Part shown: positions 4,541-63,668 of the stretch, one piece after another
How the letters are laid out: every line of letters begins with the position of its first letter
Numbering within the stretch: the first letter of the stretch is position 1
Origin: Amphibalanus amphitrite
Lineage: Eukaryota; Arthropoda; Thecostraca; Balanomorpha; Balanidae
DNA: 64,000 nt
NCBI RefSeq assembly: GCF_019059575.1
Contig: NW_024881593.1
Coordinates: 992,001-1,056,000, forward strand
Reading direction: 5' to 3'
Translations under genes and position numbers: made by a program
Notes under the pieces: model-generated
Database searches by the model: none
What the model was told of the DNA's origin: nothing
Seen by the model: the letters and a program-made list of their open reading frames with translations, nothing else

Positions 4541-6318
4541 GTGCCGAGCATTACGCGCAGCGTAATAAATCAATTTTCATTCAAATCGGCCCAGTAGCGG
4601 CCGAGTTATGGCCAGAATAAATTTGGCGTCTCCTCCTGGCCGGCGGTGCTCTGTTCCGGTATTCATTGCCAAAGGTCAGTGACCTTCCGGCTCTGATTTC
4701 GCCCAGTTTTCGCAGCGAACAATCTGAGCATACGGCGCGTGCTCTCTGCTCGGCGCCGGCCGCGGCCCAAAATGCCGCAAAGATGCGCCCGCCACGTGCA
4801 AACCGGCGAGCGCACCCCCACCAAAATTTAATGCGACAAACAGATGCACGCGTCCGACTTAAGTCCAAAATTTCACCCCCGTAGCCCGCACCGTTCCGGA
4901 GCAATAGCCCGCCAAGCGTGACTGACGCGTTACATACATACGTACAGACATTTTGATTTTTATATATGTAAACTAGACGGACAGCATTACGCGCAGCGTA
5001 ATGAATTAATTTTCTTTAAAATCGGCCCAGTAGCGGCCGAGTTATGGCCAGAATAAATTTGGCGTCTCCTCCTGGCCGGCGGTGCTCTGTTCCGGTATTC
5101 ATTGCCAAAGGTCAACGACCTCCGACTCTGTTTTCCCTCATTTTCGCAGCGAACAATCTGAGCCTAAGGCGCGTGCCGTCTGCTCGGCGCCGGCCGCGGC
5201 CCAAAATCCCGCAAAGATGCGCCCGCCACGTGCAAACCGCCGCACGCACCCCCTCGAAAAGTTGATACGACAAACAGATGCACGCGTCCGACTTGCGCCC
5301 AAAATTTCACCCCCGTAGCCCGCACCGTTCCGGAGCAATAGCCCGCCAAGTGTGACTGACGCGTTACATACATACATACATACATACATACGTACAGACG
5401 TTTTGATTTTTATATATGTAAACTAGAGGGACAGCATTACGCGCAGCGTAATAAACCAAGTTTCATTGCAATCGGCCCAGTAGCGGCTGAGTTATTGCCA
5501 GAATAAATTTGGCGTCTCCTCCTGGCCGGCGGTGCTCTGTTCCGGTATTCATTGCCAAAGGTCAGTGACCTTCCGGCTCTGATTTCCCTCAGTTTTGCAG
5601 CGAAGAAACTGAGCCTAAGGCGCGTGCCGTCTGCTCGGCGCCGGCCGCGGCCCAAAATGCGGCAAAGATGCGCCCGCCACGTGCACACCGTCGAGCGCAC
5701 CCCCACCAAAATTTAATACAACAAACAGATGCACGCGTCCGACTTATGTCCAAAATTCCACCCCCGTAGCCCGCAACGTTCCGGAACAATAGCCCGCCAA
5801 GCGTGACTGACGCGTTACATACATACATACATACATACGTACAGACGTTTTGATTTTTATATATGTAACTAGGTGTCCAGCATTACGCGCAGCGTAATAA
5901 ATCAAGTTTCAATAAAATCGGCCCAGTAGCGGCCGAGTTATGGCCAGAATAAATGTTGCGTCTCCTCCTGGCCGGCGGTGCTCTGTTCCGGTATTCATTG
6001 CCAAAGGTCAACGACCTCCGACTCTGTTTTCCCTCATTTTTGCAGCGAACAATCTGAGCCTAGGGCGCGTGCTCTCTGCTCGGCGCCGGCCGCGGCCCAA
6101 AATCCCGCAAAGATGCGCCCGCCACGTGCAAGCCGGCGAGCGCACCCCCACCAAAATTTAATACGACAAACAGATGCACGCGTCCGACTTGCGTCGAAAA
6201 TTTCACCCCCGTAGCCCGCACCGTTCCGGAGCAATAGCCCGCCAAGCGTGACTGACGCGTCACATACATACGTACATACATACATACATACATACGGACG
6301 TTTTGATTTTTATATATG
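4541..6318. repeat. Four-unit tandem satellite, ~445-bp unit
   Basis: Four head-to-tail units begin near 4541, 4977, 5427 and 5873, with spacings of 436-450 bp. Each opens with GCATTACGCGCAGCGTAAT (an inverted repeat), continues through a GC-rich middle holding GGCGCCGGCCGCGGCC, and closes with an ACAT/ACGT tetranucleotide tract and TTTTGATTTTTATATATG. Each unit has an inverted pair of AGGTCA half-sites: perfect AGGTCAGTGACCT at 4673-4685 and 5559-5571, and one-base variants AGGTCAACGACCT at 5109-5121 and 6005-6017. Units 1/3 and 2/4 share variants, which suggests duplication of a dimer. Open frames inside recur with the repeat and are not genes. Confidence 0.9.
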
Positions 6319-19470: not shown

Positions 19471-19610
19471 GTAGTTTAGTTGGATATGACAAACTCAAGC
19501 CAAGACCCCTGCTGAGCGACTTGGCCAGCCCAAGCTACTCTCTGCAGACAGCGCCATCCAGCGGCATTGTGAACAGATGGCGCCAGTGGGGTGAAAGCGC
19601 GACTTCTGCC

Positions 19611-19854
19611 GGTAGGTGGCTCTCTCAGCAGCAGAACTGCCCTCAGCGACAGTGCCTCCCTCTCCTGGCCCTTTGGCTGGTGGACGAGTACTGCCGCTAG
19701 GTGGCTCTCTCTCAGCAGCAGAGCTGTCTTCAGCGACAGTGCCTCCCTCTCCTGGCCGTTTGGCTGGTGTACGGACACTGCCGGTAGGTGGCTTTCTCAG
19801 CCGCAGCTGCTCCACTCTCAGTGACAGTGCTTCCCTCTCCTGGCTGTTTGGCTG
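19611..19854. repeat. Three-unit ~85-bp tandem repeat
   Basis: Units start at 19611, 19696 and about 19783 and share GGTAGGTGGCT, a CAGCAGCAGA block, CAGCGACAGTGCCTCCCTC and TCCTGGCCNTTTGGCTGG. Overlapping frames on both strands (Leu/Ser-rich) follow the repeat and are not genes. Confidence 0.85.
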
Positions 19855-20020
19855 CCTATTTCTAAAGTCTGCCTACCTATTTCTAATCTTAATGTTTTTC
19901 TTCAGTACTCAACGTAGCCCGTTCGGTATGGCAAAGCGAAAAAAAAAAACAGACTCTCAGAGAAGAAACTTTTGCGTAAGGTACAAATACAGTCTCCCGA
20001 AACAGAATAGAACACCCACC

Positions 20021-20343
20021 TTTCCGTGCTTCTATCCTCAGGATACTGAAATCCTTCTCCTCCACGCCGCAACCCCCCCCCCCTCCGGGCTGGACAGGCA
20101 ACTTTATCTCATGCGGGCTGCTCCCTTGGAGCGGCACCGCTGCTCCTGAGGGAGCGCACCCCGTAGCCGGGTGCGGTGAGTGCCTTGGGGCTGGGTGGCC
20201 TGTCCTCTGGACGGGCTCAGCCCCGGCGACTCACTAAGGTGCCTGCCCAGACCAATGTCTCCCCCTAATTCCTATCATCCTTCCGGCTCTGCAATGGTCT
20301 TGTCGACCGAAAGGGCCTAACCCAACAAAACAAACAAACAAGA
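20021..20343 (+). mobile_element. A-tailed retroposon-like repeat, copy 2
   Basis: Begins near TTCCGTGCTTCTATCCTC and ends CCTAACCCAACAAAAC with a CAAA-rich tail. It is followed directly by copy 3 in the same orientation. Confidence 0.7.
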
Positions 20344-20345
20344 AC

Positions 20346-20673
20346 ACCGTTCCGTGCTTTTATCCTCAGAATACAGAAATCCTTCTCCTCCACGCCGCAA
20401 CCCCACTCCGGGCTGGACATGCACCTTTATCTCATGCGGGCTGCTCCCTTGGAGCGGCACCGCTGCTCCCGAGGGAGCGCACCCCGTAGCCGAGTGCAGA
20501 GAGTGCTTGGGGGGCTGGTCGGCCTGTCCATTCGGACGGGCTCAGCCCCGGCGACTCTCTAGGGTGTCTGCCCAGACCAATGTCTCCCCCTAATTCCTAT
20601 CATCCTTCCGGCTTTGCAATGGTCTTTTCAGACCGGAAGGGCCTAACCCAACAAAACAAACAAACAAAAAATA
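20346..20673 (+). mobile_element. A-tailed retroposon-like repeat, copy 3
   Basis: A tandem neighbour of copy 2 with the same start and the same AACAAAACAAACAAAC tail. The two differ by scattered substitutions, so they are either independent insertions at the tail or an old duplication. Confidence 0.7.
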
Positions 20674-51841: not shown

Positions 51842-52292
51842 GTACACTGTACAGTGTACACTGAGGCCATCTTCCGTCTTCAAGTCAGGGCTGCTCAATA
51901 ATCCACTATTCCGCTGCTGCATTAATGTCTGTGGGTTAGCTGAAAGATCAACCCGCTCGGACAACGAAAAGTAACGGAGGAACGAAGGAACGGACTAAAC
52001 TGTTAACTTGTAACGGAGGAACGAACAACCAATGTAACGGAAGTTACTTGGTCCGTTACCCTTTTTAAAATGTAACGAGTCCGTTCCTCCGTTCCTAAAA
52101 ATTGTAACGGCGTTCCGGAACGGAGGAACGGAGGAACGGATCGTGCCCACCTATGGCTGGTTTTGAGTGCCAGCCGCCAGGTAAAATCAGTTGGCTTTTG
52201 GCAGTGTTTCCATCTGTAACTTTCTGTGCCTGTTCCAGCTGCAGTCCCGTGGTGACCTGGTCTCTGCTGTGTCTGACTGCCCGTGAGCTGTG

Positions 52293-52502
52293 ATGGCGGA
52301 CAGTGGCAGTGGACGTCTCAGGGAGGTGCTGCCCCGCCAGGGTCTGCTGCATTCTGAGGATGCTCCGAGCATGGTGCTCTGCAAGCCCAAACTGCTGCCA
52401 CTCAAGTCTGTGACGCTGGAGAAGATGGAACAGATGCAGCGAGAGGCGGACCAGAAGGCCCGTGACCAGGCGCGACAGCCAACCTCCGCTGGCCGGAACT
52501 GA
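52293..52502 (+). CDS. BBIP1: BBSome-interacting protein 1 (BBIP10/BBS18)
   Basis: This 69-aa protein is a small subunit of the BBSome, the coat complex that moves membrane proteins into and out of cilia. Residues 9-51 carry the family core: LREVLPRQG, then an acidic turn, then [13 protein letters not shown] and TLEKMEQMQ, close to the human protein (92 aa, remembered sequence). The product is shorter at the N-terminus, and its tail is polar and helical with many Gln/Arg. The ATG at 52293 has a good context (G at -3, G at +4). The preceding in-frame GTG is not needed. A pyrimidine stretch ending TGTTCCAG about 50 bp upstream could be the acceptor of a 5' UTR intron. The coding part is one exon. 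The gene sits 137 bp after a hAT transposon and 484 bp before LMBRD2 on the same strand. Confidence 0.9.
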
Positions 52503-52986
52503 ACTGCACCACGTCACCGCAACTTGCTGCCAGTCCCACGCAGAGATCAGACTACAGCGGAGTTGAGCTTGACTAAACTTTGACATACTGCTACTGTGTC
52601 GAGGGCCAGTGTAGAGAAACATTGGGCAATAAGTGGGACCTGGAGTGAAAACCTGTGGAGCCATTCTAGCCAAGAACTAAGCTACAGATTGATGGGACAT
52701 TGACATATTAGTTCTGTACATTTATTGAAGGTAATTTAGTAATTTTGGCCGGGACAGCGTGTGCATTATATCAGAGACACTGAGTGAATTATTGGTCACT
52801 GCATGTGAAACGCACATCTGGCACACTGAACTACTTAAACCCAAGAAGTGACACAGGCAACTCAGTGGACTGCAAACTTTCTGAGATCAGTGCACTTTGT
52901 AGCCGTAATCGCTCCACAGTGTAGGTAAATCCCCAGTGCTGAGTCAGTGATATCTAGCAGAAGTCCATCAATACCAAACCATCACG
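52503..52986 (+). other. BBIP1 - LMBRD2 interval (3' UTR / 5' leader)
   Basis: These 484 bp separate two same-strand genes. I find no AATAAA polyadenylation signal and no obvious TATA box. The interval therefore holds either a compact terminator and promoter or a stretch of a shared transcript. No further gene is seen. Confidence 0.5.
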
Positions 52987-53160
52987 ATGACAGCGGGCCC
53001 GCTGTCAGTGGAGATTGTCGCCACCTTCTGCGTGGCGGCCGCGCTGCTGTATCGGTACGGCGACTGGCGTAACCACCACGTGTTCGTCACGATCTCGGTG
53101 CTGATCGCCTGGTACTTCTCACTCATCATCGTCTTCGTCATCCCCATGGACGTGTCCAGG
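52987..53160 (+). CDS. LMBRD2: LMBRD2 exon 1
   Basis: 58 codons, ending in phase 0 at donor GTGAGG. It encodes two membrane segments (about residues 7-22 and 31-53) around RYGDWRNHH and closes with IPMDVSR, matching the family's LDVS boundary. Confidence 0.93.
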
Positions 53161-56100
53161 GTGAGGAAACGAGCGCGAGCAGGGTGGGGAGTGGAGAGGG
53201 GACGGCGGTTGGCGGCAAGTGTGCCTTAGTTTCTGTTAAATGAAGTGCTGGCCACTGGCCAGTGAAGGGTAGACCAGTGGACATGTTTCGTTGGATGATC
53301 GTAAAACAACTGCGTATGTCACGTAAAAACGGTTTTTCGACGGCTTAGAATCCCCAGTAGTTACGATGGTTTGTAAGATTATTCATTTTGTGACATTTTC
53401 GTTTGTTTCCGAGTAATTTGGTGGCTGTGAATCTCCTGTTTCAAGTCGTCTGCATTTTTCTTTACGTGTTTGTTTTATTAACATTTATTTGTTCAGTTTA
53501 ATACAATTCCATTGCATTAACAAGACTCTGTTCGTCCGTTGCAGACGGCGTACAACAAATGTGTCCGTGATCACGATCTGCCTGTGAGCACCACTACCGT
53601 GGCACCGCCGTCCAACGACACCATTCTGCCGGACAACGTCACCATCACCACCGTCACCAGCGCCAACACCAGCGTCACCACGGCAGTGCCATCCACAGTC
53701 GCCTTTTTCGGCTCCTCGAGTGACGCGCCGATCACGGCCGGCCCCTCCCCGGAGCCGACACCGTGCGAGCGGCCCTGGAGCTACGTATCCGAGGCAGTGA
53801 TGATCGACCTGTGGCGCGTGGTCTACTGGACCTCGCAGGCGCTCACCTGGCTCATCATGCCGATGACGCAGTCGTACACCCAGGCAGGCGACTTCACCGT
53901 CAAGGGGAAGCTGCGCACGGCGCTGGTGGATAACGCAATCTATTACGGGTCGTACCTGATCATCGCCATCATTCTGCTGATCTACATCAGCACGCAGCCG
54001 GGCGTCCATGTCGACGGGTGAGGAACGGAACAGAGGGGATGATAGAAAGACAGGGAACCGGATAAAAAATTGACGTTTGGTGCCGCACGAACCGGTGTCT
54101 GGGAGTCTCTGGCTGACGTTAATTGGGGAACGTCACGCTTTCTTGACGTGCTGTGTGTGCATTTTTCCATCCGTGTGTGACCTCCGTTTTGCTCTTCCCC
54201 TTTGATCGGGTTTGAATATAACATAAACTCGGGCCAAATATAAGCCAACCCACTCTCCACATGACCGGTTCTGACTTCAACTTTTTGACCTTACTTCTTC
54301 GTTTTGCCCTTTTGAACTGATCTGACCTGCTCCTCTCCACCCTCTAACTAGACCAACTCCTCCCTCTGACCGTGTCTCACCAAACCGCCGCCAATGTGAC
54401 CGGCAGACCGCACCTGAAGCTGATCGCCTCGTCTGCCAGTAACACGTGGGGCCTATTCCTGCTGGTTCTGCTGCTCGGCTACTCCCTAGTGGAGGTGCCG
54501 CGCGCCCTGTGGCACGCCGCCCAGCGCGGCTGGAGCCTCCGGCACGGCTACTTCCGAGTGGCCAAACTGAGCGCCGAACGCTCCGAGGCAGAGGAGGCCC
54601 TCGATGACGTACTGGATGTGAGTGTTCATCGGCTGTTTATCTACAATATTGCCGTAATCATTATTAATATTGGTGCTACTAATTGGATATTTAAATTGTT
54701 TTTACTGTGATCCCTTCTATTATCGCTGCTCGCTTAGCTTTGTTTTTATTGACGGATATTCTTGAATACCGTGGTCCTTTAGAACGGGACATAGACTCTC
54801 GTCCCGTCGACAGAACGTCGACCTTTAACTAACTAGATAAGGTAACCCTGAGTGAGAGTTTTATTGTTCGCATTACGCTGCGATGTTTCATGTTTCAACC
54901 GGTTCTGCAGGTTTGCGTCGGTGTTGAAATTTACCGTCAACAATGGGACTTAGTTGCGACGTTTGGCATTTCATGTTTGTACCGTTAATTTTCTTTTTTG
55001 TTTTGTTCACGGATGAGTGAAGAAACCATCCAAATTTGGTGATAATTAGCTTCAGGAGCCCAAATATTTTCTTGGAAACGAAACGAAGCAATAACTGCTT
55101 GTCCTACATCGTGTATTGTTGAGCTTTGGATGCCGTGCCATTTACGACAATCATTAGTGAGGTGGGATGCAAGGGTAAATTCTCCTTCGGACAGCCGGAA
55201 GTCTTTAGGGCTGTGCAGTTTCACATAGCTGGTAAGCACCAATGTATCTTGGTTTTCTCGCTGCTTTTGTAGTGTCTCTAATGTTTTAGTGTGTCGTATT
55301 TGAGGATTCGTCATTGGCCACAAATCCCATAAAGCCATTCAGAATTATCTTGATTTGCACCTTTTACCCATCTAACGTCAGTGACAATTTCTCCTTTTCC
55401 ACACATAGGTACCCAATCCTTTTGCACTTTCACCTGACCCCTCTGTCTCCGTATGTTTTCGCCGCCAGTCGTTGCAGCTGGCTTCGGAGGCGATCAGCGG
55501 CAGCCACCCGCTGCGGCCCTGCGTGGACACGGTGCTGGCCAAGGTCCCCGCCGGGCTGCAGCAGAGGATGAAGCGCCGGCAGCGAGCCGGGGACGCGGCG
55601 CCCATGCCTACCCAGAAGTCGCTGGTGGCCCTGCATCGGCAGGTGATCCGGGCCCTGCAGCACCACCACCGCACCGAGGCCCAGTGGGAGATGTTGGTAG
55701 AGGAGGTAAGAATATTATACCACTATCGTACCGAGAAAATAGGATACCCTCCACTATACCACCACCGCACCGAGAGATCAATAGGATACGCTCCTCTATA
55801 CCACCACCGCACCGAGAGATCAATAGGATACGCTCCTCTATACCACCACCGCACCGAGAGATCAATAGGATACGCTCCTCTATACCACCACCGCACCGAG
55901 AGATCAATAGGATACCCTCCACTATACCACCACCGCACCGAGAGATCAATAGGATACCCTCCTCTATACCACCACCGCACCGAGAGATCAATAGGATACG
56001 CTCCTCTATACCACCACCGCACCGAGAGATCAATAGGATACGCTCCTCTATACCACCACCGCACCGAGAGATCAATAGGATACGCTCCTCTATACCACCA

Positions 56101-59100
56101 CCGCACCGAGAGATCAATAGGATACGCTCCTCTATACCACCACCGCACCGAGAGATCAATAGGATACGCTCCTCTATACCACCACCGCACCGAGAGATCA
56201 ATAGGATACGCTCCTCTATACCACCACCGCACCGAGAGATCAATAGGATACGCTCCTCTATACCACCACCGCACCGAGAGATCAATAGGATACGCTCCTC
56301 TATACCACCGCCGCACCGAGAGATCAATAGGATACGCTCCTCTATACCACCACCGCACCGAGAGATCAATAGGATACGCTCCTCTATACCACCACCGCAC
56401 CGAGAGATCAATAGGATACGCTCCTCTATACCACCACCGCACCGAGAGATCAATAGGATACGCTCCTCTATACCACCACCGCACCGAGAGATCAATAGGA
56501 TACGCTCCTCTATACCACCACCGCACCGAGAGATCAATAGGATACGCTCCTCTATACCACCACCGCACCGAGAGATCAATAGGATACGCTCCTCTATACC
56601 ACCACCGCACCGAGAGATCAATAGGATACGCTCCTCTATACCACCACCGCACCGAGAGATCAATAGGATACGCTCCTCTATACCACCACCGCACCGAGAG
56701 ATCAATAGGATACCCTCCACTATACCACCACCGCACCGAGAGATCAATAGGATACCCTCCTCTATACCACCACCGCACCGAGAGATCAATAGGATACCCT
56801 CCTCTATACCACCACCGCACCGAGAGATCAATAGGATACCCTCCTCTATACCACCACCGCACCGAGAGATCAATAGGATACGCTCCTCTATACCACCGCC
56901 GTACTGAGGCTCAGTGCGAGATGTTGGTGGAGGAGGTAAGTTTATAAATGAGAGGGGTGTGGATACCCCTGTACCTTTACCGCACCGAGAGAGAATGATA
57001 TCCTCGTTCTATACAAACACTGTATCGTGGCGCAAAACCTTGGAGATGCCGAGCTGTGTATTGGAAGCCCCGCTGAGTGCTAAAACGTCATGCAATATGC
57101 ATTTCACTCTACAGTCGCAGGCAGCCGAACTAACCCTTCTCCTATCTCCGTTTGTGTAAAATCGTCAGGTGATCGAGCTTGAGGACGTATCTGAGAACCA
57201 GCGTCACCGAGACGGCTACTTCAAACCGAGCCTTCCCCGACCGCCCAGCTGGACCAGTCTCATTATTGGCGCGCGGCTAGGTAAGGTGATGGTGCCATTG
57301 CGGTGTTTTCGGAACATTTCCAGGATGCGTATTTTGTGAGTTTGTGACGCATAACATTGTTAATCGATGCTATGGACTATGGTAGAGAGGTGAGGAGGTG
57401 AGAGTAACTACCGGTACCACCACTGTACCGAGGCCCAGCGGAAGATGTTGGTAAAGGAAGTGAGAATAGCCCATGGACGAATAGCCTAGCAGTTTATTGA
57501 ATAGCCCTCAGCTCTGTAGTCATTCGTCCAGTTAGTTTTGGAAATATAATCTGACTCTTATACGCCTTTCCCCTCAGAATGGTACTGGAAGTGCCGCCTA
57601 CGCGGATATGCACTCCGCTGCCTCTCTGTGGTCTGCGCCATCACATCCTTCATGGTGGTCTGGTCGGAGCTCACCTTCTTCAACAAGAGCCCGACACTGT
57701 CGCTGTTCGCAGTCTTCATCAACGCCGCAAAGTCCAACTACGACTATCTGGCGATTGAGGTTCGTTAACTGTTCAATTAACGTCCGATTACTTCGTGTTG
57801 TTGTTGTCGGTGTGTGGCTGTTTTTCCGCATTCATTATGCTAAACTGACCATGCTTGCGCTCGGTGTGCGGGATCATTTCCTCATGGTTGCGTGGCTTTG
57901 TCGTAGTTTTGTGTTATCAATGAAGGTACTTACATATCGAAGTGCAGTATCCGGGTACAACAAAGTAATGCTATGTCTCCTTTGATTACCGTGGAGAAAA
58001 AGGTATCTACAGATCTCATGTCCCATGATGATTTAGATCCCATGTCTATCGATCAGAACAATGCCAGATAAACATGAACATTTTTTGTTTGTACTCTTCA
58101 TTCCCTCATTAGTTGGATGTTGCGGCATTGTTCTGTTCAGCGGCGATCACACACAGGTAATGGTGACCGTTGACTGTTCCTTTTCATTCCACAGGTGATA
58201 TCTAGTCTCACAATAGCTTACCTCTGCGTCTGTACTTACTACACGATATTCAAGATCCGCGTGTTGAACTTCTACTACCTGGCTCCGAACCACCAGACAG
58301 ATCAGCACAGTCTCATCTTCTCCGGGATGTAAGTGCAACGACTTCACACCGATATTAAAGAGTGTACGGTATGCTTCTCTGTGCACAACTCTTCGTTGGT
58401 TCTTTCTTTAAGTATGTCTATATTATGATGACAATGTGTTTTCCCCTGCGCTTTAAATAGGTTCACGGACTCGCAGAGTCATCCCGCCCTCCTGACTCCT
58501 CCCCCCTCTGTCCCCGCAGGCTGCTGTGTCGTCTGACCCCACCACTCTGCCTCAACTTCCTCGGTATGATCCACATGGACAGCCACATCATCAAGGACAG
58601 GGTGGACGAGACCGCTTATACCAAGGTGAGTGACGTGGCCCCTCAGGGCAGCCGGGAGGAGTAGGGCGACAACAATTTGTGTACTAGAATGTGTAGCTGA
58701 GAGTACTGTTATAATGGGAGTCGGGAGACTGATCGGGTGAACGACCTCTGGTCCCAGATCCCGTTGGTTGTGTAGATGGCGTTTCATTCGATCATGACGC
58801 AAATATTTGTTTGGCTATTTTAGTGCCAGTCTACTGGCAGTGCTGCAAGTTGATCTTTCGATTCGATATTCGGCATTTCTTCGTCTCTTATCTCTCTCAG
58901 ATCTCGGCCCCGCCTTTGAGATCGTTTCTGTCTCCGTCTTCCACAGATCATGGGCCACATGGACGTGTTGGCCATCCTGTCGGAGGGTTTCAACATCTAC
59001 TTCCCCATGTGCGTGCTGGCCTTTTGCCTGGCCACGTGGTTCTCGCTGGGCGCGCGGCTGCTCAGCTTCCTCGGCTTCCAGCAGTTCCTCGACCAGGACG

Positions 59101-60663
59101 AGATCACCACCGACCTGACGGACGAGGGCCGCGAGCTGGTGCGGCGAGAGCACCGGCGCCGGCAGCGGCAGAGCGGCGCCGAGACGCGCCCCGCCCCGCG
59201 CGCCGACCCCGCCCCCACTGGCGGAGGAGGGGGAGGGTGGGGCAGCCAGGCGTACCGCGCCGCCGTGCAGCGCGCCGAACAACGCAGTGAGTCGCGCATC
59301 ATTGGGCAGCGTAGTCGACTGTTATAGTTAGTTTGGAGGCTTGGCTCGGGTTCCATCAACAATGGGAGTACTCCCATTCTACTACTTAGTAGAATGAAGG
59401 CTGCCGGATAGTTAGGTATTGTTTGTAACATGGCGGAGCAGAACTGGCGGTGTATTTTTCTTGCGGCCGTTTTATTTGCAGTTCTATGAACCGTGGTACT
59501 CAATTCACATTGTGTCCATATTTGTAGATTGAAACCATTGCTTCCCTGCCATTGTCACTACTTTGACGCAGAAACTGTTATAAAAAGGCGCAACAGTGAG
59601 TATTTAGCTCGGAACCTACTTGACCGGCTCAAATTTCTTAATAGTGACTCACGTTCCCTTCCTCCATCCTTTGTCAGTTACCTACTAGCTGAGGACCCAA
59701 TTAGGCAGTAAAATACTAATAATACAAAAGTGTCGCCACCATTGTTATTACCCGTTTCACCATTGAGCCACTAGCTCGAAGTGTCGCCCCAAACTCCAGT
59801 GAATGGGTGACGTCGCATTCCTTTCCGCTCGAACTGCTTCTGTCGTATTGTATTTACAGTTTACCTCCGGTCGCTGAAGCACCAAGCAATGTACTCTTAG
59901 CAGGATAGGTCCTGCACATGACCGAAGAGTGATCACCAATGCCCTACCATAATCCCTTCAAGGTGTCGACTGCCGAAACTTTATTTGGAGGATACTTACG
60001 ATCACGGGAATCTGTAGTTGGTTGACTGTAATGATCACTGATATGACTTTCCCCTTTCCCCATCCACATCTCCCTCCCCCGCAGTGTGCCCCGCCCCCCG
60101 TTCTTGCGCCTCTCTGGCCCCTCCCTCTCTCCCCAGCAGGGTGCTCGCTCCTGTCCCGCTCTAACCCCCCTCCCCCAGCAGTGAGCTCGTTCCTGTCTCT
60201 AAGGCTCTCCCTTTCCCCTGGCATTGCGCTCGTTCTCTCAGACTCTAACCCTCCCTCTCTCTCTCTCTCTCCGGCAGGCGCTCGTTCTTTCCTTTGACAC
60301 CCTCTGCCATCTGCATGCGCTCGTTCCTGTCTGTAACCACCCCTTCCTCCTCCGCAGTGCGCTCGTTCCTGCCCCGCTCTAACCCCTCCCTTATCTTGCA
60401 GTGCGCTCGTTCCTGCCCCGCTCTGATCGTTACCTCTCTCGCCCGCAGTGCGCTCGTTCCTGCCCCGCTCGGAGTCGGGCGAGTCGGCGCGGCTGGAGCT
60501 GCTCGGGTCGCCCGATCCGCCGTTCCCGGGCCGGGAGCGGCCGGCACGCGACTCCTGGACCGAGCCCGAAGTCGAGAGCGTCGGACGCGTCGGAGACGAC
60601 GGCTTCAGCTACAGCCGCACCGGCCGGCCCGCAGCGCCCAGAGGCATCTTCGACGACGTGTGA
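52987..60663 (+). CDS. LMBRD2: LMBR1 domain-containing protein 2, ten-exon gene
   Basis: A multi-pass membrane protein of the LMBR1/LIMR family (LMBR1-like domain). Human LMBRD2 has been linked to beta-adrenergic receptor signalling; the biochemical role is not settled. Exons: 52987-53160, 53545-54017, 54407-54617, 55478-55705, 57169-57280, 57578-57759, 58195-58328, 58520-58625, 58947-59286, 60449-60663. All introns are GT-AG, phases agree, and the total is 724 aa (human 695). Landmarks include RYGDW near the start, [42 protein letters not shown]-like PCVDTVL, VVWSE.TFF, FRIRV-like [48 protein letters not shown] and a C-terminal IFDDV. The start at 52987 precedes the first membrane segment and has A at -3. 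Introns 4 and 9 hold splice-site-derived arrays. Confidence 0.93.
53545..54017 (+). CDS. LMBRD2: LMBRD2 exon 2
   Basis: Acceptor TTGCAG, residues 59-216, ending with two bases of a Gly codon. It opens [10 protein letters not shown], then a Thr/Ser-rich extracellular loop (about 72-125) with possible N-glycosylation sites at Asn82, Asn89 and Asn99. Conserved CERPWSY (132-138) and membrane segments follow around [17 protein letters not shown] and [19 protein letters not shown]. Confidence 0.92.
54407..54617 (+). CDS. LMBRD2: LMBRD2 exon 3
   Basis: Acceptor CGGCAG, one base completes Gly216, then residues 217-286. It contains the strongly conserved [19 protein letters not shown] membrane segment and a charged cytoplasmic stretch ([16 protein letters not shown]). 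Donor GTGAGT, phase 0. Confidence 0.92.
55478..55705 (+). CDS. LMBRD2: LMBRD2 exon 4 (ends at proximal donor)
   Basis: Acceptor GTTGCAG, residues 287-362, phase 0 on both sides. The cytoplasmic region includes [22 protein letters not shown] and [13 protein letters not shown]. Donor GTAAGA at 55706. A second copy of the last codons with its own GTAAGT lies in frame at 56936. Confidence 0.92.
55706..55711 (+). promoter_or_regulatory. Proximal 5' splice site of exon 4
   Basis: GTAAGA directly after codons for EMLVEE. Using this site gives the normal-length family protein. Confidence 0.85.
55719..56898 (+). repeat. 27-copy, 42-bp minisatellite in LMBRD2 intron 4
   Basis: The unit is 42 bp, with 27 copies of CGAGAGATCAATAGG at exact 42-bp spacing from about 55771 to 56863, plus a degenerate first unit. 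In the LMBRD2 frame each unit reads [14 protein letters not shown] without stops. Units near the edges carry CCCTCC where inner units have CGCTCC, so the centre has been homogenised. The CACCACCGCACCGAG part equals the end of exon 4, so the array seems to have been seeded by that exon's 3' end. A degenerate unit persists near 56976-57000. Confidence 0.95.
56894..56941 (+). promoter_or_regulatory. Duplicated exon 4 end with distal 5' splice site
   Basis: CGCCGTACTGAGGCTCAGTG, then codons for EMLVEE and GTAAGT (donor at 56936), copy the end of exon 4. From 55706 to 56935 is 1230 bp, 410 open codons in phase 0, so use of this donor would add a 410-residue repeat domain in frame. Trp of QWEML is Cys here. 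Confidence 0.75.
57169..57280 (+). CDS. LMBRD2: LMBRD2 exon 5
   Basis: Acceptor CGTCAG, residues 363-399 plus one base. It encodes [18 protein letters not shown] and a Pro/Arg stretch, equivalent to the AFYLEDVAKNE region of the human protein. Donor GTAAGG. It is less conserved than its neighbours, but the phase fits both. Confidence 0.85.
57406..57465 (+). pseudogene. Third copy of the exon 4 end, in intron 5
   Basis: Reads as CACCACTGTACCGAGGCCCA, then codons resembling RKMLVKE, then GTGAGA, a diverged copy of the exon 4 3' end with donor. No convincing acceptor lies just upstream, so it is probably a non-coding duplicate. Confidence 0.7.
57578..57759 (+). CDS. LMBRD2: LMBRD2 exon 6
   Basis: Acceptor CCTCAG, completes Glu400, to residue 460, phase 0 at donor GTTCGT. 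It encodes [15 protein letters not shown], a membrane segment with [10 protein letters not shown], and [22 protein letters not shown], all close to the family. Confidence 0.92.
58195..58328 (+). CDS. LMBRD2: LMBRD2 exon 7
   Basis: Acceptor CCACAG, residues 461-504 plus two bases. It contains a membrane segment, [18 protein letters not shown] and SLIFSG. Donor GTAAGT. Confidence 0.93.
58520..58625 (+). CDS. LMBRD2: LMBRD2 exon 8
   Basis: Acceptor CCGCAG, completes Met505, to residue 540, phase 0. It encodes [20 protein letters not shown], one of the most conserved family segments. Donor GTGAGT. Confidence 0.93.
58947..59286 (+). CDS. LMBRD2: LMBRD2 exon 9
   Basis: Acceptor CCACAG, residues 541-653 plus one base. 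It encodes [20 protein letters not shown], the last membrane segments ([12 protein letters not shown]), [10 protein letters not shown], a basic stretch ([10 protein letters not shown]) and a Gly-rich tail. Donor GTGAGT. The frame runs 41 bp into the intron before a stop. Confidence 0.92.
60060..60448 (+). repeat. Array of ~9 copies of the LMBRD2 last-exon 3' splice site
   Basis: Before the last exon the pattern [pyrimidines]-GCAG-TGCGCTCGTTCCTG-CCCCGCTCTAACC recurs at about 60083, 60139, 60181, 60225, 60277, 60316, 60357, 60401 and 60448, spaced about 40-55 bp. Most copies keep a usable-looking AG after a pyrimidine tract; two have lost it (GGCAT, CTGCAT). The last copy is the true acceptor because only it continues into the conserved C-terminus. 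Copies grow more alike toward the exon. Confidence 0.85.
60449..60663 (+). CDS. LMBRD2: LMBRD2 exon 10 (last)
   Basis: Acceptor CCGCAG, completes Met654, ends TGA at 60661-60663. It encodes a polar cytoplasmic tail and finishes [13 protein letters not shown]. The human protein ends SDIFNDV, which supports this acceptor and frame. Confidence 0.9.
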
Positions 60664-62751
60664 GCGGGAGGGGCGGGACGGGAAGATATGTGTGCTGGAC
60701 GGGAGGGTTGGGAGGAGTGATGGAGTTACTAAGTCAAGTCAGGACTGGTCAGTCGGCAGGCGGCAGTCCGAGCTGCCACCAAGCAGCGGGAGGGCTGCCA
60801 TATTTTCGCCGGGTCGTTGGATAGAGTAGTAAAGTAATCTTGGTTGGATACCGAGCACACATTGGATCGATAGCCTACAGTGTCAGTGCTGCGGCTTCTC
60901 GGTCCAAGTGTATCTCTCTAATGCGTTCCAGTGGTATTTGATAGAGAAGGGAACTCGGCGCAGGGTCGGCATTTATGGGAAGTTAATTCAGCAGCAGTCA
61001 CAGACGTGGGTGGCATTTTATATCGCGTGCACAGAGTATGATTCTATTTACGGAGGCAGCAGCGGCCGGGGGCGAGCCATCACGTCGCTAACGATCTACC
61101 GATAAATACGTTTTTAAGACCTATAAAGACAGCAGGCTGCTAAGCTGCCGTCACTTCACGCCGTCGCTAAGGAGGTTATTTATGCTATTTATTTCGCTTT
61201 ATGGGTGTCAGCTTCCCACTGTCCGTTGGGACGCGTAGGTTGTGACGCGTCAGCACAAGGTCATTATTTAGTCGTCGGTGTGCCAGCTATAGCCGTGCTG
61301 TCTATACACTAATGTACGCTGCTGTTTTGTATATGCACTGTGATGAGTCGCCTACGGTATCGTATTTGCCATGGCAGGTTGTGTGTGTGAGTTTACGAGA
61401 AAATGCAGATTTTCCTTTATCAAAGATTGTGCTGGCTATTTCATGAAATGACGGTGTAAGGTGATTTCTTCGGGCATTTCTTTTAACTCCGTGCGGTGTG
61501 CCTGTGGTTTCCTGTCTGCGTCAGAACATGTGTGGGGACCCGGGATGTCACAGTGGAGCTTCTTCATTCGCCATAACCGGCCTCCGCCGTGCGTTGGACC
61601 GGGGCTGGAGCTTTCTTCGTGATTTTTTTTTTTTTTTCACGTCTGAGAGTTTGTGCTGGCTGGGGTTAGGGTTGAGTGATAGGGGCGAGTGTGCTGATGA
61701 GGACCGACAGACCGGAGCCAGGTCAGGTCAGGCTCGGGTTGTATTCTGCGATCTCAGCTGTTTAGGATCGGTATAGCTTCTGGTCGGAATATACGTGTCC
61801 AATATTACCTTCGGTATGTTCACTGGGGACGGAGAATCGATGGGTTATGCAACAGCGGCGAGTGCGGCCTTCTGGGATAATGGATACGTCACTGGCGATG
61901 GATTTATTTTAAGCGCCTACCTGTCAGTCTGAGTTCCAGGCAGTGACACTCGGCGGAATCCGGAAGCGGCTCGGTGTCAGTCGTGTCAGTCGCGTCACCT
62001 GTCCTTGCCGGTGCGGTGACACAGTGGTGCCGTGTCACCCGGTCGGCGGCGGCTCCGGCCGTACCCCCGTGATGGGTAGCCGGCCCCGGACTATCACAAG
62101 GTTATCGCAGCGGCGCGGGGCCGGCTGATCAGCGGTGACCAGTCCGCCCCCCCCCCTCCCCGGCCCCCAGCCGCCGGGTAGGACGTCTGTGTTTGGGATA
62201 AGGGGGAGCGACACGCCTTGGGCTTCGGCCCAATGTCCAGGCCGCACAAGTTTTCGAGCTTGATCTAGGTTTTGTTGATTGACAACAGTTCCGTGATCAT
62301 TACTGGCTCGCCATTCTACGACCCCCAATTCGACACTGGACTAGCGGGATCGAGCAGAGAGAGAGAGAGGGTGGGAGGGAGGGAGGGAAGGCGTCTCAGG
62401 GTCTCTGATAGTGATGTTTTTGTTCCTGCGCATTTCCGCTTACGTATTCGATGCACGAAACGAAGACACGTGTCTTCATTGTTTGCCCGCCCGCCGCTTA
62501 CTGTTTACAAATTACATACCGGTGTGTTTCCTACCGACTTCTCGGTGGAGGCTCTCCCGATCACCCGAGTTTACGACTCCCATTCAGTGGCGGCGCCACG
62601 AATTTTCGCCAGTGGGGGCAAGCTTGAGACTGACCCGACTGTTGTCTGATAACGCCGATCTGCAAAATCCATTAGCACCTTGTCCCTAGATGTTGTCATT
62701 CAAAATTATTTTGGTTTCAGGTCTCATGCATAGGCGCATTGAGTTTAACCA
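60664..62751. other. LMBRD2 3' UTR and downstream region
   Basis: No gene is supported. I see no canonical AATAAA close to the stop; ATAAATACG near 61103 is a weak candidate. A poly-T run lies at about 61624-61638, and a short GA/GGGA purine tract at 62356-62388. Confidence 0.4.
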
Positions 62752-63274: not shown

Positions 63275-63500
63275 TCCCAGTAAACATGCCGACGTCGGCC
63301 CGACGTCGGGCCGAGGCTCGGCCCAACGTCGGTTCAACCTCGGCCCGACATCGGCTGGACGTCGGATATGCCCGCATGTTCCGACGTCCAGCCGAAGTCC
63401 AGCCGACGTCGAGCCGACGTCGGGCCGAGGTCGTTTGCCGAGGTTGACGAGATCGTTTGTCGTTAGACCGACGGGGCCGACGTCGGCATGTTTATTGGGA
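63275..63500. mobile_element. GACGTCGG-rich foldback element
   Basis: Begins TCCCAGTAAACATGCCGACG and ends with its near-exact inverse finishing TGTTTATTGGGA. CA flanks both sides. The interior is almost wholly overlapping copies of CCGACGTCGG and CCGAGGTCGG-like motifs in both directions, so nearly any part can fold on any other. Confidence 0.75.
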
Positions 63501-63668
63501 CAACGCGCCAAAAATATCAACCGGCGGCGGGATTCGAGCCCCCCAGTCGCCGACGTCGGCATGTTTACTGGGACAACACGCCAAAAGCACCAACCGGTGA
63601 TGGGATTCGAACCCATCGTCATTTGAACGCGAGGTTAGTGCGCTAGCCACTACACCACGCAGCCAGAT
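63480..63668 (-). mobile_element. Dimeric tRNA-headed SINE-like repeat
   Basis: On the minus strand a tRNA-like head (63668-63596) has an A-box-like TGGTGTAGTGGCTAGC and a B box GGTTCGAATCC with a good T arm. It is followed by ACCGGTTGGTGCTTTTGGCG, GTGTTG and TCCCAGTAAACATGCC. A second unit (GCTCGAATCCCGCC onward, with the same tail) follows. The acceptor and anticodon arms do not pair, so this is a tRNA-derived repeat rather than a working tRNA gene. Confidence 0.65.

Follow-up and report, generated by a model that had tools for sequence, protein, structure and literature searches.

Results

The LMBRD2 gene

The window, by which we mean the whole 64-kb stretch of DNA from the barnacle Amphibalanus amphitrite that was analyzed, contains a gene for LMBRD2, whose exons were positioned by eye on GT–AG borders and then joined (Table 1). 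The identity of the gene, proposed earlier in a sequence-only reading of this DNA, is borne out by a Pfam LMBR1 match (PF04791) to residues 4–578 of the 727-residue product (E 6.6e-189) and by a full-length match to an annotated LMBRD2. This database protein, P0001, is also from A. amphitrite; it is 99% identical to our product and differs from it at 8 of the 727 residues. Because a nucleotide diversity of ~5% has been reported in coding regions of the congener A. improvisus (PMC8270832), these eight differences could well come from another individual. A second database match, a Pollicipes pollicipes protein, shows 79% identity over 92%, and a search of solved structures gave no match at E 0.01. 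The GC3 of the coding sequence is 0.85.

Elsewhere in the window, no Pfam match was obtained for 10 long open reading frames chosen from the 189 listed outside LMBRD2, and the 64 kb contains no tRNA. The window also has an array of ~445-bp units at 4547–6288 (3.9 copies, 90% matches), an 87-bp tandem repeat at 19606–19854 (2.9 copies), a 323-bp tandem repeat at 20017–20667 (2 copies), and a cluster of GCCGACGTCGGC repeats at 63275–63614 in which a 25-nt stretch recurs as inverted copies (100% complementary). This last cluster might represent mobile-element ends.

Table 1. Features of the LMBRD2 locus, in positions of the window; U1, pairing energy with U1 in kcal/mol
Feature	Position	Strand	Remarks
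LMBRD2 coding span	52987..60663	+	10 coding exons, 727 aa
Exon 1 (coding)	52987-53160	+	
Exon 2 (coding)	53545-54017	+	
Exon 3 (coding)	54407-54617	+	
Exon 4	55469-55705	+	3' end (copy 1, 55662-55705) gave rise to the duplicated segment
Proximal 5' splice site, GTAAGA	55706..55711	+	U1 -9.6; junction in P0001
Lead-in of 12 nt and one diverged 39-nt unit	55706..55756	+	
27 tandem units of 42 nt	55757..56890	+	No GT in any unit; consensus encodes 14 residues in LMBRD2 frame
Copy 2 of exon-4 3' end	56892..56935	+	In frame; has Cys at the invariant Trp position
Distal 5' splice site, GTAAGT	56936..56941	+	U1 -10.7
Degenerate array unit(s) 3' of distal donor	56961..57020	+	
Exon 5	57169-57280	+	Acceptor common to proximal and distal donors
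Copy 3 of exon-4 3' end with donor, intron 5	57416..57468	+	87% identity; donor decayed
Exon 6 (coding)	57578-57759	+	
Exon 7 (coding)	58195-58328	+	
Exon 8 (coding)	58520-58625	+	
Exon 9 (coding)	58947-59286	+	
Copies of exon-10 acceptor and first exon bases, intron 9	60126..60429	+	Separate array
Exon 10 (last coding)	60449-60663	+	Intron-9 array derives from its acceptor region

A minisatellite between two donors

Between exons 4 and 5 lies a tandem array that greatly exceeds chance expectation (TRF score 2246, period 42, 28.5 copies, 98% matches) and that, by the length and high identity of its units (~10–100 bp is usual), is a minisatellite. The earlier reading placed a GTAAGA donor before it and a GTAAGT donor after it, and both are present, each preceded by GAG. 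The 1230 nt between them are, as that reading also held, 410 codons uninterrupted by a stop in the LMBRD2 frame: 4 residues from the lead-in, 13 from the diverged 39-nt unit, 378 (27 x 14) from the regular units, and 15 from copy 2. Each of these lengths (12, 39, 42, and 1230 nt) is a stop-free multiple of three. The description of the array as 27 exact units holds for their number and for their length, which is 42 bp throughout, but only 20 of the 27 are identical in sequence. In order, the unit types are AAACBAAAAAAAADAAAAAAAACBBBA (A, 20; B, 4; C, 2; D, 1), in which the pair CB occurs at units 4–5 and again at units 23–24, the pattern that block duplication would give. The dinucleotide GT is found in 0 of 27 units, and donors are present solely at the two ends of the array.

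The end of exon 4 does appear again beyond the array with its own GTAAGT, although as a diverged copy (85% identity over 53 nt). Because a degenerate unit lies past the distal donor, the array probably once extended further in the 3' direction.

Copies of exon ends and the origin of the unit

We compared 81 nt around each of 20 exon ends (18 splice sites plus the start and stop) with positions 52000–61500 on the + strand, using 15 shuffles each. Clear copies were found for two of the 20. The copies of the exon-4 donor have alignment scores of 65 and 63, where 15 shuffles reached at most 24, and the best copies of the exon-10 acceptor score 56 and 54, where as many shuffles reached at most 30. 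Among the others, the exon-8 acceptor is marginal (31 versus 28 for its shuffles; pyrimidine tract), the exon-5 acceptor equals its shuffles (24), and the remaining 16 ends score below theirs. Because the exon-4 donor and the exon-10 acceptor both have copies, two splice junctions of LMBRD2 are each the source of tandem copies.

Copy 3 of the exon-4 end retains a GTGAGA at 57460, which pairs with U1 at -4.6 kcal/mol. Shortly upstream, also in intron 5, stand two strong U1 matches at 57390 (-10.2 kcal/mol) and 57398 (-9.7 kcal/mol); the stretch 57385–57405 may be another relic of the exon-4 end. In intron 9, five places score higher than any of ten shuffles (29 at most) and all keep the AG, and two of the copies match the start of exon 10 over 22 nt. 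Weaker copies lie in register at 60313–60329 (equal to 29) and 60221–60235 (score 25, below it). In a search for alternative acceptors that keep the frame, we translated five AG-bearing exon starts of the intron-9 array, at 60140, 60182, 60278, 60358, and 60402; none of them reaches the normal C terminus.

The 42-nt unit shares 17 exact nucleotides with exon 4 in the same frame, encoding HHRTE, with an alignment score of 34 versus at most 26 in ten shuffles, as is expected of a minisatellite derived from the boundary. An alignment of relatives shows this stretch to be the old protein sequence. The other 25 nt of the unit are similar to the diverged 39-nt unit at the 5' end of the intron. Codon usage divides along the same line: the exon-derived codons are common in LMBRD2, whereas 6 of the 8 intron-derived codons are rare (AGA, 1 of 53 Arg; TCA, 2/60; ATA, 3/40; CCT, 2/44; GCT, 4/64; CTA, 4/75), and the other two are somewhat low (GGA, 7/42) and common (TAC, 22/27). 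Because of the exon match on the one hand and the resemblance and rare codons of the remainder on the other, the unit looks like an exon/intron chimera from which the donor was lost. The proposal that the array grew from the exon's own 3' end thus applies, exactly and in frame, to 17 of 42 nt, but the rest looks intronic.

At a single site, copies 2 and 3 share CGT and differ from exon 4; the array has CGC there, the form of exon 4, and the 39-nt unit has CGT. This suggests an array younger than copies 2 and 3, but CGC is also found in the degenerate unit behind copy 2, so that the order is tentative. Among the six best places per strand in the 64-kb window, neither the unit nor the exon-end copies have a match above shuffles outside 55662–57468, and the unit is therefore not dispersed across the window.

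Donor strength and open frame

The distal donor is the best U1 match among the 322 unannotated intronic GTs of LMBRD2, and two annotated donors pair better. With the proximal donor, intron 4 is 1463 nt long, and with the distal donor it is 233 nt; the other eight introns range in length from 191 to 1162 nt, with six at 191–435 nt. Distal use would lengthen exon 4 to 1467 nt. The frame stays open for 413 codons past the proximal donor (1 to 30 codons for the remaining eight introns) and closes 3 codons past the distal donor.

In 200,000 simulated arrays of 27 units, each unit 30–60 nt drawn from the other introns of LMBRD2 with a random lead-in, 3.9% were in frame and open with seven introns (intron 9 left aside) and 4.7% with all eight. 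The 410 open codons, although expected of a coding minisatellite, thus have a chance probability of ~0.04–0.05, and because the observation was also picked after the fact, the open frame is weak evidence for coding.

Assigning substitutions by the majority of the three copies gives 3 synonymous and 2 nonsynonymous changes in copy 2 and 1 and 4, respectively, in copy 3, where 17–31% synonymous would be expected. The synonymous excess in copy 2 is suggestive, with numbers far too small to decide. As for selection on a translated repeat, changes among the units are few (four unit types), and the rare codons speak against it.

The exon 4–exon 5 junction in proteins

P0001 joins the proximal end of exon 4, with its Trp, to exon 5. 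In all 12 aligned LMBRD2 proteins (P0001 and 11 chosen among 120 listed of 899), this Trp is invariant and no gap falls at the junction; in copy 3, the position is Arg. P0001 is a database model from another assembly or allele, possibly one free of the array, and a long form would escape gene models built after repeat masking. In a restricted length range, 4841 candidate proteins gave two matches, P0001 and P0002, both without the insert, and among 7998 candidates scored, again in a restricted length range, none matched the insert or the repeat. The 410 residues contain no Pfam domain. A hydropathy scan places the junction in an extensive hydrophilic loop flanked by hydrophobic segments, a region that the earlier reading took to be cytoplasmic, and a structure model places it inside a predicted helix (residues 335–376, local pLDDT 81–87); because the mean pLDDT of the whole model is just 51.9, the helix counts little against an insertion.

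Discussion

The copies, their frame, the pairing energies of the donors, and the exon and intron make-up of the locus are established by the analysis of the DNA. The explanation that we favor, with a probability of roughly 0.7, is that the array is an intronic minisatellite that arose by duplication of the exon 4/intron 4 boundary, and that the proximal donor is used in most transcripts, so that the array is removed. Old tandem duplications would have copied the last ~45 coding bases, the donor, and the first part of the intron, so that three exon ends now exist, in exon 4, at 56892, and at 57416. A derivative in which 17 nt of exon sequence were joined to intron sequence, with loss of the donor, would then have grown into the array of 27 units, probably through unequal exchange or slippage. 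The donor at 55706 would, in most transcripts, be joined to 57169, yielding the normal 727-residue protein. The donor at 56936 is nevertheless a plausible functional site, whose use would produce a 1137-residue protein in the same frame, and growth of the array may have been harmless because distal use preserves the frame. We infer both this order of events and the choice of donor. For the proximal donor as the main form, the reasons are the junction in P0001, the invariant Trp that is Cys in copy 2, and the lack of an insert-bearing protein among those searched.

Several observations stand against a purely intronic array: the stronger distal donor, the shorter intron that it would leave, the 413 open codons, and copy 2, with its ratio of synonymous to nonsynonymous changes and its intact donor. 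A rival explanation is that the distal donor is in regular use, always or in some tissue or stage, which would make the array a coding minisatellite and the 410 residues an insert whose length varies among individuals. The distal site leads all unannotated intronic GTs in U1 pairing, and its intron of 233 nt would be short; every segment upstream of it is a stop-free multiple of three, and the frame shuts shortly after it; and copy 2 is still open with its donor kept, when the donor of copy 3 has decayed. We nevertheless consider regular distal use unlikely. Neither search (4841 and 7998 candidates) returned an insert-bearing protein, and P0001 has the proximal junction; most intron-derived codons are rare; copy 2 has lost the invariant Trp; the insert would fall in a predicted helix and in a gap-free region; and exon 4 would grow to 1467 nt. 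Of the claim that the distal donor would insert 410 residues, the frame arithmetic is sound, but several results speak against the longer product as the main form: P0001, the absence of an insert among the proteins searched, the rare codons, the helix, and the gap-free site. That the barnacle makes two LMBRD2 proteins, one of 727 residues and one of ~1137 with a 27-unit domain grown from its own splice junction, is likewise doubtful.

An untranslated array could also act on the splicing or processing of intron 4, with the distal site as a decoy or U1-binding site, or with its TAGG motifs binding splicing repressors and so altering the choice of donor. TAGG, which we take to be similar to an hnRNP A1-type motif, occurs 28 times in the array, and the distal U1 site is strong. 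Counts of this kind are, however, an automatic result of tandem copying, and four units show no sign of RNA structure (z +1.5, with 190 of 200 shuffles folding at least as well), so that we also rejected RNA structure as a bridge between the donors; an effect on splicing seems to us improbable. Finally, tandem arrays are often mis-sized in assemblies, and the array or the duplicated exon end could have been misassembled. The copy number given here is the number as assembled, and the ordered variant units and diverged flanking copies are unlike a simple assembly duplication, which makes an artifact very improbable.

An intronic minisatellite of boundary origin, as we favor here, belongs to a known kind, that of tandem duplications crossing exon–intron boundaries. 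In human IFI6 (1995 work, cited in PMC4526556), a minisatellite supplies splice donors; two downstream repeat units are reportedly used as donors, and three mRNA species are described. The two cases are alike in having alternative donors within repeated sequence. In IFI6, however, the units themselves are donors and the mRNAs have been reported, whereas in LMBRD2 no unit contains a donor and the putative donors stand at the two ends; in this respect, the array is not of the IFI6 type. Internal tandem repeats at exon–intron boundaries have also been described in human paralogs from recent segmental duplications, where they are intron or exon depending on the transcript (PMC2812944). These too are boundary minisatellites, and most of the coding cases described there keep the frame. 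The human intron cases are mostly supported by transcripts, unlike that of LMBRD2, which is known from genome sequence, and the LMBRD2 array differs from them in that the exon end recurs on its far side. More generally, tandem duplications across splice borders are a recognized source of introns and of shifted intron ends (PMC4974935, PMC2891723). As in those accounts, a boundary duplication here copies splice signals, and multiples of three permit alternative splicing; in LMBRD2, by contrast, intron 4 existed beforehand and its start could move, and no new intron is proposed. In the passages of the literature on such repeats that we searched, we found no arrangement in which donors stand solely at the two ends and another part of the gene holds an acceptor array, and a search for LMBRD2 together with barnacle returned no paper.

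LMBRD2 of A. amphitrite is a clear case of repeats that stem from the splice junction of their own gene; diverged copies lie next to near-identical ones, and an acceptor of LMBRD2 has given a second array. If the distal donor is used, LMBRD2 would illustrate how new repeat domains and shifted exon ends can come about without a frame-breaking stage. If two proteins are indeed made, we would be looking at the start of an intron turning into exon, tolerated because each step was a multiple of three, and the length of the array would vary between individuals. If the distal donor is not used, the array is instructive in another way, as an open frame that is coding in appearance and most likely noncoding.
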